A stretch of 64,000 nt of DNA from Natranaerofaba carboxydovora (GTDB lineage: Bacteria; Bacillota; Natranaerobiia; Natranaerobiales; Natranaerofabaceae), in contig NZ_CP054394.1 in NCBI RefSeq assembly GCF_022539405.1, positions 746,501 to 810,500 on the forward strand. The letters run 5' to 3'. The translations under genes and the position numbers were made by a program. Below the pieces are notes generated by a model. The model saw nothing but the letters and a program-made list of their open reading frames with translations. It did no database searches and was not told the origin of the DNA. Each line of letters opens with the position of its first letter. The stretch's first letter is position 1. Shown one piece after another: positions 6,934-10,898 of this stretch.

Positions 6934-6946
6934 GAAATTATAAATA

Positions 6947-6968
6947 TGAGTATATATGCATATAATCA
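6947..6968 (+). promoter_or_regulatory. Candidate ArsR/SmtB-type operator
   Basis: An imperfect dyad TGAGTATAT-ATGC-ATATAATCA lies just downstream of the predicted -10. Its form resembles ArsR/SmtB-family half-sites. It sits between the promoter and a thioredoxin-like/ArsP-type permease pair, the kind of genes such repressors control. No arsR gene is in the window. AT-rich sequence makes chance matches possible. Confidence 0.35.
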
Positions 6969-6996
6969 TTTTATTGAAACAAGGGGGCTATTTAAA

Positions 6997-7230
6997 ATGG
7001 ATGTTAAGATTATGGGACCTGGATGTGCTAATTGCGAGAAACTTTTTGAGCTAGTTAAAGAAGTAGCTAGTGAAAAAGGTTTAGAAGCAAATATTGAAAA
7101 AGTAACTGACATGAATCAAATCACCACTGCAGGAGTAATGATGACACCGGGGTTAGTTATTGATGGAGAGGTTAAATCCCAAGGTAAAATTCCATCCAAA
7201 GAAGAAATATCTAACATAATTGATAGTTAA
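6997..7230 (+). CDS. Thioredoxin-like small redox protein (redox-active disulfide protein 2 type)
   Basis: A 77-residue thioredoxin-fold protein with the active site CANC in MGPGCANCEKLFELVKEVA, the cis-proline MTPGLVIDG, and no extra domains, which is normal for this family. The ATG at 6997 has AAGGGGGC 8 bases upstream and gives the family length; earlier in-frame starts have no such site. This family commonly sits next to DUF318 permeases, as here (130 bases before the permease). It probably donates thiols for metalloid or disulfide handling. The exact partner is unknown. Confidence 0.85.
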   Translation: MDVKIMGPGCANCEKLFELVKEVASEKGLEANIEKVTDMNQITTAGVMMTPGLVIDGEVKSQGKIPSKEEISNIIDS

Positions 7231-7359: not shown

Positions 7360-8529
7360 TTGACAGAAAATATAAGAAAACTTTTAATTTTGACTTTAGT
7401 TTTTCTTGGAGCTTATTTTATCCCTTTTGAAAGTAATTATGTAAAAGCCGCCATTATGGAGGCTTTTTATATGCTGCAGTACTATGCTAGAGAACATGTA
7501 TTAACATGTTTAATACCGGCATTTTTTATAGCTGGGGCTATTGCCAATTTTGTCTCTCAAGGAGCAGTACTGAAGTATTTTGGTGCCCAGGCAAACAAGT
7601 TGTTATCTTATTCTGTGGCTTCAGTTTCTGGGATACTTTTGGCAGTATGTTCTTGTACTATACTACCTCTTTTTGCTGGAATTTATCAAAGAGGTGCTGG
7701 AATTGGGCCTGCCATTGCGTTTTTGTACTCTGGTCCCGCTATTAATATATTGGCAATTACTTTGACAGCTAGAGTACTGGGTTTTGAACTAGGGTTAGCA
7801 AGAGCTATCGGAGCTATTATTTTTGCTATAATTATTGGTTTGATTATGGCGACAATATACAAAAAAGAAGACCAAGAAAAAACAGCAGGCTCCTTTGATA
7901 TGGGAGACCAAGAAGAAAACAGAAGTCCATATCAAAACATATTATACTTTGTTACAATGGTGATAATTTTACTTATCATGACAATGAATGAACCAGCAGA
8001 TGCTGATAGTATTTGGGCTTTGCTATTCGATGTAAGATGGTATGTTGCTATTGGATTATTGATTATTTTAGGTATAATGATCGTATCATGGTTTAACAAA
8101 CAAGAAAGAATATCATGGGTTGAATCAACTTGGAGCTTTGCGTGGCAGATATTTCCCTTATTATTTGCAGGGGTTTTTGTCGCTGGATTATTAATGGGTA
8201 GGCCTGAAAGTGATGCTGGACTGATCCCTGCGCATTATATAGAAGCCCTTGTTGGAGGCAATTCTGTTCAGGCAAATTTTATTGCTTCGATAATAGGTGC
8301 CTTTATGTATTTCGCTACTTTGACTGAAGTGCCAATTCTAGAAGGATTAATTGGTTCAGGTATGGGTAGCGGCCCTGCTCTTAGTCTGTTGCTTGCAGGA
8401 CCAGCTCTTAGTCTTCCTAATATGTTAGTTATTAGAGGAGTACTTGGAACAAGGAAGACAGCAGTCTTTGTGGTTTTGGTAGTGGTGATGGCAACTATCT
8501 CAGGACTGATATATGGTAATTTCTTTTAA
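7360..8529 (+). CDS. DUF318/ArsP-type permease
   Basis: An integral membrane permease of 389 residues. Two clusters of membrane helices are split by a charged loop near residue 168-190. The first half has the diagnostic VCSCTILPLFAGIYQRGAGI (Cys-Ser-Cys-Thr) and SGPAINILAI; the second half has FATLTEVPILEG and AGPALSLPNML. Family members include ArsP exporters of organic or trivalent arsenicals. TTG start with GGAGGTGAT upstream. It follows the thioredoxin-like gene. Substrate specificity is not shown by sequence; the arsenic link is inferred from the family and from the reductase cluster nearby. Confidence 0.87.
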   Translation: MTENIRKLLILTLVFLGAYFIPFESNYVKAAIMEAFYMLQYYAREHVLTCLIPAFFIAGAIANFVSQGAVLKYFGAQANKLLSYSVASVSGILLAVCSCTILPLFAGIYQRGAGIGPAIAFLYSGPAINILAITLTARVLGFELGLARAIGAIIFAIIIGLIMATIYKKEDQEKTAGSFDMGDQEENRSPYQNILYFVTMVIILLIMTMNEPADADSIWALLFDVRWYVAIGLLIILGIMIVSWFNKQERISWVESTWSFAWQIFPLLFAGVFVAGLLMGRPESDAGLIPAHYIEALVGGNSVQANFIASIIGAFMYFATLTEVPILEGLIGSGMGSGPALSLLLAGPALSLPNMLVIRGVLGTRKTAVFVVLVVVMATISGLIYGNFF

Positions 8530-8570: not shown

Positions 8571-8741
8571 TTATTGACTAATATTATTTTTTAAACTTTC
8601 CAGTTTTTTTTCTAGTTCTAAAATTTGCTCTTCGATATTTTCTTTGTTTTCATCGTTAACTTTATTTTTTAGGTTTTCAATTTCTGATTTTAACTCGTTG
8701 ATTTCTGACTCGTAATATTCACTATCTTTTTGGATAAACTT
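8571..8741 (-). pseudogene. 3' remnant of a coiled-coil protein gene
   Basis: On the minus strand 56 codons are open up to a TAA and encode a glutamate/lysine-rich heptad pattern (ESEINELKSEIENLKNKV, ENIEEQILELEKKLESLKNN). No start codon or ribosome site precedes it. Upstream the frame runs straight into a GC-rich block at about 8742-8796 that looks foreign. I read it as the truncated C-terminus of a coiled-coil protein whose identity cannot be told. Confidence 0.5.
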
Positions 8742-8800
8742 CCCCCGCAGCGGAGGGCAGCAAGCAAAGCCCGGAGAATTCGAGCTATGAGCCCGCCTAA
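8742..8800. other. GC-rich anomalous block between two gene remnants
   Basis: This roughly 55-base block is clearly richer in G+C than the AT-rich surroundings (for example CCCCGCAGCGGAGGGCAGC and AGCCCGGAGAATTCGAGC). It contains a small CCGCAGCGG dyad and codes for nothing recognisable. It sits at the junction of a truncated minus-strand gene and a truncated plus-strand gene, as expected of a scar or end of a lost mobile element. I cannot identify the element. Confidence 0.4.
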
Positions 8801-8969: not shown

Positions 8970-9125
8970 ATGAGCGAACAAAAAAAGGAGAAAAAAGGTC
9001 TTTTAAGTAAAATATTTGGGAAATCAAATGACCAAAAGACTAATAAAGGTGGATGTTGTAGTGTAAGGATTGAGGCCGAAGATGAAAATACTTCTAATAG
9101 TGATAATGATAAAAAACAAAATTAA
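8970..9125 (+). CDS. Small CC-motif protein preceding a permease
   Basis: A 51-residue protein with AAGGAGG 7 bases before its ATG. A lysine-rich N-terminus is followed by KGGCCSVRIEAEDE and a polar tail. Small proteins with a vicinal or near-vicinal cysteine pair followed by a V/I-x-I-E-x-E stretch often lie next to DUF318 permease genes, as here with 14 bases between the two. A metal or metalloid chaperone role is plausible but only inferred. Confidence 0.7.
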   Translation: MSEQKKEKKGLLSKIFGKSNDQKTNKGGCCSVRIEAEDENTSNSDNDKKQN

Positions 9126-9139
9126 AGGCAGGGGTAATA

Positions 9140-10078
9140 ATGTTTTCGACGGATAACTTAATTGAAGTAGCAGGATTTTTTTTCTATCTTTTAGGGGAAT
9201 TACTTTTACTATTTGTAGGAATCAGTTTTCTCGTTGGACTTTTACAGGAATATGTGAACCCTGAAGCTATTAAAAACTATTTGGATAAAAAACGCATTGG
9301 TGCAGGAGGGAATGTGATAGGGGCTTTCTTTGGCTCGCTAACTCCTTTTTGTACCTGTTCAACTATTCCTATAACTCTTGGACTATTAAAATCAGGTATT
9401 CCTTTTGGAATAACAATGAGTTTTTTCTTTGCTTCACCTTTGTTAAACCCTATTGTGGTAATTTTAATGCTTGCCTTATTTGGCATTCAAATGACGGCTA
9501 TTTATGTAGCGATATTATTCCCTACTTCAGTGATAATAGGATTATTGCTTGATAAGTTTGGTTACGAAAAAGAAATTAAGTCAGTAAAAGTAGTAAAAGA
9601 TGAGGAAGAAGAGGCAGAAGAACTGCCTGAAAACCCTACGTTTTTACAAAAATTGCGTCCAAGACTTAAAAATGCCGGGCGATTTGCTATTTCACTTTTT
9701 CGTCAGGTAATAGTTTTTTTGTTCCTTGGAGCAGCTATAGGTGCTTTCATCTACGGTTTTGTGCCAGAGGAATTTATAGTCAGGGTAGCAGGTCCAGAAA
9801 GTAAATTTTCTATACCAATAGCTTCTGTCATAGGTATTCCTATGTATGTTAGGGAAGCTACAATATTGCCTATTAGTTCAGTGCTTATTGATCAAGGCAT
9901 GAATATTGGAGCTGTTATGGCACTTGTTATCGGGGGAACAGGAGCAAGTCTTCCTGAATTGACAATGCTAAACACAATTTTTAAGAAAAAACTACTTATA
10001 ACATATATTATAATAGTAATTGCTGTGGCAATATTTGCTGGATATTTATTTAATATATTGATGGCTGCAGGGATTTAA
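9140..10078 (+). CDS. DUF318/ArsP-type permease, second copy
   Basis: A 312-residue polytopic membrane protein, shorter than and divergent from the copy at 7360. First half: FFGSLTPFCTCSTIPITLGL (Cys-Thr-Cys-Ser-Thr) and SPLLNPIVVILML. Second half: VIGIPMYVREATILPISSVL and VIGGTGASLPELTML. The two helical bundles are split by a very acidic loop near residues 155-170. Translation is probably coupled to the small CC protein gene just upstream. It likely exports a soft-metal or metalloid species; the substrate is not determinable here. Confidence 0.87.
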   Translation: MFSTDNLIEVAGFFFYLLGELLLLFVGISFLVGLLQEYVNPEAIKNYLDKKRIGAGGNVIGAFFGSLTPFCTCSTIPITLGLLKSGIPFGITMSFFFASPLLNPIVVILMLALFGIQMTAIYVAILFPTSVIIGLLLDKFGYEKEIKSVKVVKDEEEEAEELPENPTFLQKLRPRLKNAGRFAISLFRQVIVFLFLGAAIGAFIYGFVPEEFIVRVAGPESKFSIPIASVIGIPMYVREATILPISSVLIDQGMNIGAVMALVIGGTGASLPELTMLNTIFKKKLLITYIIIVIAVAIFAGYLFNILMAAGI

Positions 10079-10121: not shown

Positions 10122-10158
10122 ACTCCGGTTTTTGGAAAAACTCTGCCGGAGTTTTTTG
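10122..10158 (+). terminator. Intrinsic terminator after the second permease
   Basis: ACTCCGG (10122-10128) pairs with CCGGAGT (10146-10152) and is followed by a T run, about 45 bases after the permease stop. Confidence 0.8.
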
Positions 10159-10159
10159 T

Positions 10160-10190
10160 TTGACCTTCCGCCAACTGGAAGGTTTATAAT
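10160..10190 (+). promoter_or_regulatory. CueR/MerR-type metal-responsive promoter-operator
   Basis: TTGACC (10160-10165) and TATAAT (10185-10190) are 19 bases apart, the over-long spacer typical of MerR-family promoters. The spacer is filled by a perfect dyad ACCTTCC-GCCAACT-GGAAGGT (10163-10183), the arm sequence and spacing of CueR sites at copA promoters. It directs transcription toward a wrecked aminotransferase-like gene and a 65-codon gene. No MerR-family regulator gene lies in the window, so the regulator must act in trans if the site is live. Confidence 0.8.
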
Positions 10191-10278: not shown

Positions 10279-10637
10279 TTGAGTGCAATATATCTTGATA
10301 ATGCAGCTACATCATATCCAAAGCCAGATGGAGTTGTTATGGCCATGGAACACTATATTAAACATATTGGTGCTAGTGCTGGAAGAGGCTCGTATGAACG
10401 AGCCCAAAAAGCTTGTGAAATAGTAACTGAGACAAGAGAAAACCTGGAGTAGGTTACGTCCTAGATGAAGCTTTTGATATTATGGTAAGAACTGGCTTTC
10501 ACTGTGCTCCTATAGCCCATGAGTCTATAGGAACCCTTGAAAAGCGAGGAACTATAAGAGTAGGGCTTGGCCCGTTTAATACCAAAAGAGATATCGAGCT
10601 TTTACTTAATGCCTTGGAGGAAGTGATTAAAACTTAA
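10279..10637 (+). pseudogene. Internally deleted cysteine-desulfurase-like (class V aminotransferase) gene
   Basis: From a TTG with AGGGGTGAT upstream, 57 codons encode a class V aminotransferase N-terminus (SAIYLDNAATSYPKPDGVVM, then HIGASAGRGSYERAQ) up to a TAG at 10450. A second frame from 10452 then encodes only the C-terminus (VRTGFHCAPIAHESIGTLEK, then RVGLGPFNTKRDIELLLNAL) to a TAA at 10635-10637. Against a normal length of about 380 residues some 250 central residues, including the PLP lysine, are missing and the frame is shifted. The C-terminal motifs fit the TIGR01977-type subgroup. The gene must be dead as an enzyme. Confidence 0.85.
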
Positions 10638-10700: not shown

Positions 10701-10898
10701 ATGAGCGAAAAAAATAAAAAAGAGGAAGTCAAAAAGGTATTTATTGCTCTTGACCAGGAAGACATGGTAACTCTAGAAAGTATAAGACTTGATAAAGATC
10801 CTGAGGAAGCCCTCGAATTTGTATTGAAAACTATTTATCCAAGAGTTGAAAAGAAAGCCCCATGTCTTGGGCAGCAAGGGATGGGTATAAGAAGGTAA
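10701..10898 (+). CDS. Small hypothetical protein of 65 residues
   Basis: ATG start with AAGGGGTG about 8 bases upstream, and a clean terminator behind it, so it looks like a real gene. The product (EEVKKVFIALDQEDMVTLES, then DPEEALEFVLKTIYPRVEKK) is soluble, begins with a lysine-rich tail, has one cysteine in a KAPCLGQQ stretch and ends in arginines. I do not recognise a family. It lies 63 bases after the wrecked aminotransferase-like gene and may share its CueR-type promoter. Confidence 0.6.
   Translation: MSEKNKKEEVKKVFIALDQEDMVTLESIRLDKDPEEALEFVLKTIYPRVEKKAPCLGQQGMGIRR

Follow-up and report, generated by a model that had tools for sequence, protein, structure and literature searches.

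The window analysed here is a stretch of 64,000 nucleotides from Natranaerofaba carboxydovora (contig NZ_CP054394.1, positions 746,501 to 810,500), in which a MerR-type promoter stands downstream of several candidate arsenic genes and heads a unit consisting of an aminotransferase remnant and a small gene that we call S65 (Table 1). The upstream genes encode an ArsE-like protein, two ArsP-type permeases, and a small CC-motif protein; the ArsE and ArsP genes went unmentioned in the initial annotation. We assigned the permeases to ArsP clusters 1 and 2 by a published motif rule (PMC4435449), and both are candidate arsenic permeases that score below the cut-offs of the SaoE, SO_0444, and arsenic-efflux models. 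Between the two arsP genes, a short G+C-rich stretch (8735-8800, CCCCCGCAGCGGAGGGCAGC...) has the look of a scar left by recombination or insertion.

Table 1. Features at and around the MerR-type promoter, in window coordinates.
Feature	Coordinates	Strand	Basis and remarks
MTH895/ArsE family thioredoxin-like protein	6946..7230	+	TIGR00412, 99 bits (cut-off 62)
ArsP-type permease, cluster 1 motifs LAV-CSC and HVL-C-PAFFIAG	7360..8529	+	PF03773, 260 bits
Small CC-motif protein, 51 codons, beside the arsP genes	8970..9125	+	ORF; no Pfam/NCBIfam match
ArsP-type permease, cluster 2 motif TPF-CTC	9140..10078	+	PF03773, 208 bits
Intrinsic terminator of the upstream arsP-like gene	10122..10157	+	-13.1 kcal/mol, z -3.05, then T6
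MerR-type promoter	10160..10190	+	-35 TTGACC 10160-10165, spacer 10166-10184, -10 TATAAT 10185-10190; read from sequence
Perfect 7-7-7 dyad ACCTTCC-GCCAACT-GGAAGGT, CueR/HmrR-type operator	10163..10183		Sequence, genome search
N-terminal fragment of TIGR01977-type class V aminotransferase/cysteine desulfurase	10279..10452	+	57 codons, ends TAG; PF00266, TIGR01977 positions 1-53
C-terminal fragment of the same aminotransferase	10449..10637	+	Other frame; TIGR01977 positions 318-376; tblastn residues 321-378
S65 gene, 65 codons, intact; probable functional target	10701..10898	+	Ribosome site; homologues, family alignment
Terminator closing the window unit	10938..10974		Fold -15.0 kcal/mol, z -3.99

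The promoter reads, in order, TTGACC, TTCCGCCAACTGGAAGGTT, and TATAAT, with a spacer of 19 bp read directly from the sequence. The dyad is centred 7 bp downstream of the -35 box, as has been described for sites of CueR (PMC5045206). Compared with the CueR signal in the literature, ACCTTCCC-(5)-TGGAAGGT, which likewise belongs to a promoter whose spacer is 19 bp long (PMC1526738), it has a different base at one position out of 16. The initial annotation had described an ACCTTCC/GGAAGGT dyad placed in a 19-base spacer as in copA-type promoters, and that description was accurate. At the genome's G+C content of 35.6% and size of 3.26 Mb, chance alone would be expected to produce the exact dyad 0.004 times per genome and the exact full promoter 5e-8 times. 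The exact dyad occurs once genome-wide, at the window site, and one further copy carries a single mismatch. With up to two mismatches allowed, the promoter occurs four times in 399 genomes of the phylum, two of these occurrences being in the genome studied here, and a reversed control promoter gave zero occurrences in every genome listed from the same search. That the dyad is a chance arrangement is vanishingly improbable, since these statistics already refute it and the sister copy falls exactly at a MerR gene. All 24 specified promoter positions are intact, and the window site is, as far as sequence can tell, a genuine MerR-type switch promoter at which regulator binding is predicted.

The unit behind this promoter is bounded by terminators. 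The terminator of the upstream arsP-like gene stops just short of the -35 box, and the terminator downstream of S65 is a single stem usable on both strands (its minus-strand counterpart is called at 10974-10938). With strong terminators before the -35 box and after S65, the operator thus heads a closed unit of ~780 bases, in which S65 is the sole intact gene.

The first gene of the unit has been destroyed. The initial annotation recognised an internally deleted aminotransferase-like gene, and model comparison bears this out: the N-terminal fragment covers TIGR01977 positions 1-56 at most (with a tblastn match to residue 55 that ends at ~10446), and the C-terminal fragment lies in a different frame. 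Between the two, ~265 codons are missing and the frame is shifted, amounting to a loss of two thirds of the length; nothing remains of the catalytic middle with its PLP-lysine region. The genome retains one intact TIGR01977 protein elsewhere (467 bits; genome 2946644-2947792, L099 6645-7793); its gene lies next to one of peptidase M23 type and to parA/parB-like genes, and the stretch examined contains no arsenic gene.

S65, noted in the initial annotation as an unknown 65-codon gene, proved to be intact and to have homologues. We identified these in 24 of 399 sampled genomes of the phylum, distributed over 17 of 267 genera, and S65 shares 31-56% identity with 15 relatives in the family alignment. 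The family follows the pattern MxKVFIVLDxEE...ICLDKDxEEALEF...KK..CL, of which S65 shows the hallmark K-V-F-I-x-L-D strand and EALEF helix; a C-terminal Cys is usual in the family. Scanning 16 members against Pfam and NCBIfam returned nothing credible, a profile search against solved structures gave no match, and no S65 was found on plasmids. The structure predicted for S65 alone is poor (pLDDT 57.5). Its apparent strand-helix-helix pattern recalls ribbon-helix-helix proteins, which is only a lead, and no ribbon-helix-helix family in Pfam or NCBIfam matched S65. On these comparisons S65 is an undescribed small protein family that lacks a Pfam or NCBIfam entry. Two genomes, G321 and G299 (L076 8346-9126 and L082 3271-4736), carry three diverged S65 copies in or near one another, which suggests local duplication.

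A comparison of 20 S65 loci in relatives showed which genes accompany the family. An arsenic gene (Acr3, ArsP, ArsE, ArsM, or ArsC) occurs in the stretch around S65 at 17 of these loci and ArsR lies near S65 at 18. The aminotransferase beside S65 is full-length or nearly so at 13 loci (one of them frameshifted), a fragment at one, and not adjacent at six, so that S65 lacks an adjacent full-length aminotransferase at 7 of the 20. S65 is thus an arsenic-island gene that has survived partnerless in several lineages. The clearest of these islands is L070, with the gene order ArsR, aminotransferase, S65, Fe-S protein, small protein, ArsE, ArsP, ArsP-like, ArsR, Acr3, and ArsC. An Fe-S protein of ~185 residues with a C-terminal PF04060 match follows the aminotransferase, or is fused to it, in many islands (L070 8352-8915, L080 6437-8164), and no trace of a protein of this type was found in the window. 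Decay is also visible in other islands: an N-terminal aminotransferase fragment sits beside S65 in L077 (8313-8734), S65 itself has an in-frame stop and no aminotransferase in L078 (8431-8598), and the aminotransferase is frameshifted in L087 (6683-7824).

In these relatives, ArsR genes and not the window operator head the corresponding units. All 20 of the S65 loci compared lack the operator, so the rewiring is known from one case only. These same loci lend no support to the initial proposal that a copper exporter had recently been lost from behind the promoter, as what relatives have at this place is a full-length aminotransferase, within arsenic islands and with no copper exporter.

The window site could be seen as a relic that has outlived the aminotransferase and drives nothing useful, given that the first gene is destroyed and that the ArsR-headed units of relatives lack this operator. 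We consider this quite unlikely, because all 24 specified positions of the promoter have stayed intact even though two thirds of the following gene has gone, because S65 is intact and has a ribosome site, and because 7 of the 20 S65 loci in relatives likewise do without an adjacent full-length aminotransferase. The other proposal of the initial annotation, which took the small protein for the real target, gains support from S65 being intact, conserved, and inside the terminator-bounded unit, and is likely.

The single-mismatch copy of the dyad connects the window site to a regulator. This sister site lies at genome positions 486460-486490 (TTGACCTTCCACCAGCTAGAAGGTTTATAAT) and is the only copy besides the window site at up to one mismatch. 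The two sites are the same at 32 of 35 bases from TTGACC through AATTAAA, including five of the seven unconstrained core bases, and the mismatch in the sister dyad falls in one half-site (TAGAAGGT). The sister site is directly 5' of a gene of 149 codons, here called merR486 (genome 486510-486960), and constitutes its promoter, 270 kb from the window site. The search for other dyad copies that the initial annotation had proposed was thus productive, yielding one sister at the promoter of a MerR-family gene. The merR486 product matches PF13411, PF00376, and PF09278 and has the N-terminal MerR HTH, dimerisation helix, and over-spaced, operator-bearing promoter of its own that characterise MerR-family activators. 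From the operator in this promoter we infer that merR486 is autoregulated. Its operon (genome 486511-488470) continues with a Cys-rich carboxymuconolactone-decarboxylase-like gene (CMD) and arsM, the latter scoring 345.7 bits with the arsenite methyltransferase model NF008823 (cut-off 263). Arsenic-related genes accompany both sites, as ArsM in the sister operon and as two ArsP genes and an ArsE-like gene beside the window unit.

The genome encodes five MerR-family proteins, and MerR486 alone has Lys at position 14 of the recognition helix (PSKTIRYYE; the two other close MerR proteins have RTI). A published statistical analysis links Lys14 with C/C and G/G at the operator positions seen here (PMC5045206). 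The lone Lys14 among the five proteins, together with the sister promoter, makes MerR486 the obvious candidate regulator of the window site. We dropped the notion that Lys14 is a strict requirement for this operator, as a MerR protein encoded behind an almost identical operator in L068 has Thr. Another MerR-family gene of the genome (2059508-2059975, L028 8509-8976) encodes a C-terminal CxxC...CxxC and a different recognition helix, STRTIKYYE, and is followed by a flavodoxin/FMN-reductase-like gene. Neither MerR486 nor its CMD neighbour has close homologues among the 399 phylum genomes, so the arsenic link is not one that conservation can check.

MerR486 contains four cysteines, C86, C136, C141, and C144. 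C136 and C144 are spaced C-x7-C as in CueR; with the additional C141, the tail reads C-x4-C-x2-C. C86 lies near the position of CueR Ser77, an equivalence that is ambiguous, with a dimerisation helix ~15 residues longer in MerR486, and in a phmmer alignment to 4ua1 it falls opposite the Cys by which Bacillus MerR binds mercury. In CueR, Ser77 keeps out divalent ions (PMC10028694). The four cysteines of MerR486 could provide three thiolates, and their arrangement is compatible with several soft metals.

The operator type is not specific to one ligand, as it is also found 5' of copA-cueR, of merR-merA, and of a MerR gene that does not look metal-related. The merR-merA pair of G111 (L097 1529-3512; TIGR02053, 501 bits) has a CueR-type dyad and not a classical mer operator. 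In a Clostridia MAG (L068 1653-1683), a promoter one base off the 31 of the window promoter precedes a MerR gene without metal-type cysteines; glycyl-radical-activase-like and aldo-keto-reductase-like genes are its neighbours. A MerR486 that senses soft divalent metals in general (Hg, Pb, Cd), with both operons serving as a broad thiophile defence, would be in keeping with the operator of the G111 merR-merA pair and with the alignment of C86 to the mercury ligand. Yet both units are devoid of mer, cad, and pbr genes, the arsM/arsP context is arsenic-related in family databases, and MerR486 reaches 78.6 bits against a MerR model cut-off of 150.9, which leaves a general soft-metal sensor unlikely.

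Copper, the metal suggested in the initial annotation, was assessed through both the regulator and the copper genes of the genome. Of the family models, that for CueR (TIGR02044) gives MerR486 its best score, 89.6 bits against a cut-off of 147.4, and MerR486 is also below the cut-offs for ZntR (79.1), MerR, and CadR-PbrR (75.3). As a positive control, a Bacteriovoracaceae CueR (L066) that is encoded beside copA with the same operator passes the CueR model at 168. The CueR-like MerR gene that the initial annotation had proposed to look for therefore exists insofar as a matching MerR protein was found, but it lies below the CueR cut-off. Two copper-type P-ATPase genes passed the family cut-off, and the stretches around these copA-like genes (L111, L112) contain no dyad with up to three mismatches. 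One of the two has upstream a GC-rich dyad, CCCACCCCATGGGGGGTGGG, similar to the operators of CsoR, and the genome contains three genes of the CsoR family. These observations suggest that copper is probably handled by CsoR proteins and that the CueR-like operator is otherwise employed.

A true CueR-type copper regulon, with the arsenic genes as coincidental neighbours or themselves copper-responsive, would account for the CueR/HmrR-like operator (PMC1526738), for CueR being the best-scoring model, for the C-x7-C spacing kept at C136 and C144, and for the best plasmid matches of MerR486 being annotated cueR (~42% identity). It would not readily account for a score so far under the CueR cut-off that the Bacteriovoracaceae control clears, for an operon with arsM and without a copper exporter, for the absence of the dyad at both copper ATPase genes above cut-off, for the CsoR-like dyad and the three CsoR-family genes, or for the extra Cys near the Ser77 position. 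A copper regulon is thus very unlikely, and the regulator's score, the presence of arsM, and the missing dyads at the copper ATPase genes led us to set the initial copper assignment aside.

We propose that the two promoters form a trivalent-arsenical regulon under a MerR-type activator, with S65 as the surviving target of the window unit. We give this proposal an even chance of being correct; in it we infer binding, ligand, induction, and the role of S65. MerR-family activators work by distorting the promoter spacer upon ligand binding (see also PMC1526738). A MerR486 dimer would sit on each of the two dyads, between the over-spaced -35 and -10 boxes, and, if it follows this known mechanism, the ligand-bound form would distort the DNA such that RNA polymerase opens the promoter. 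Its predicted targets are its own operon (merR486, CMD, and arsM) and the window unit, in which S65 would be the useful survivor and the aminotransferase remnant a dead passenger. Since one target contains arsM and the other descends from an arsenic island, a trivalent arsenical is our best guess for the ligand, with roughly equal chances for and against overall. Arsenite or methylarsenite, presumably held by cysteine thiolates, would be the most likely forms. Such a system would imply a division of labour in which ArsR governs the arsenite pump and MerR486 governs methylation and S65. We advance more tentatively, at somewhat below an even chance, the full statement that a MerR activator senses arsenite or methylarsenite through a rebuilt Cys site, keeps the CueR-type DNA code, and controls a methylation operon and a partnerless S65.

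Arsenic genes are generally described as being under ArsR/SmtB repressors, and within our partial coverage of the open literature we found no description of a MerR-family regulator of arsenic genes. If the proposed regulon is real, a MerR-family sensor has turned a copper-type operator to arsenic use, and annotating a copper regulon from operator sequence alone would be misleading, a point that the G111 merR-merA pair and the L068 MerR gene make as well. It would also single out a small conserved arsenic-island family that Pfam and NCBIfam do not cover and, if right, offer a clean inducible setting for work on S65.

A comparison with known systems places these features in context. The window site resembles CueR/HmrR systems of the copA type in its 19-bp spacer, its 7-7-7 ACCTTCC/GGAAGGT dyad centred at +7 from the -35 box, and the Lys14 of its candidate regulator. 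It differs in that this regulator falls under the CueR cut-off and has a Cys near the Ser77 position and a C-x4-C-x2-C tail, and in that the putative targets are arsM/CMD and S65, where those systems have copA. With MerR/merA operons the merR486 operon shares a MerR-family activator, an over-spaced promoter, a seemingly autoregulated first gene, and a detoxification enzyme behind it. Classical mer operators are of the TCCGTAC/GTACGGA or ACCGTGTAC types (PMC1526738), however, which the present operator does not resemble, and the enzyme is ArsM here and MerA there.

The remaining comparisons concern the genes of the window unit. The two aminotransferase fragments match the two ends of the TIGR01977 cysteine desulfurase family/selenocysteine lyase SclA, whereas the window holds these fragments only, without the catalytic middle. 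The neighbours ArsE, ArsP, the TIGR01977 aminotransferase, and S65 are shared with ArsR-controlled islands such as L070. In contrast to those islands, the aminotransferase here is destroyed, a MerR-type operator heads the unit in place of arsR, and arsR-acr3 lies apart from the unit, near 106 kb (L125).
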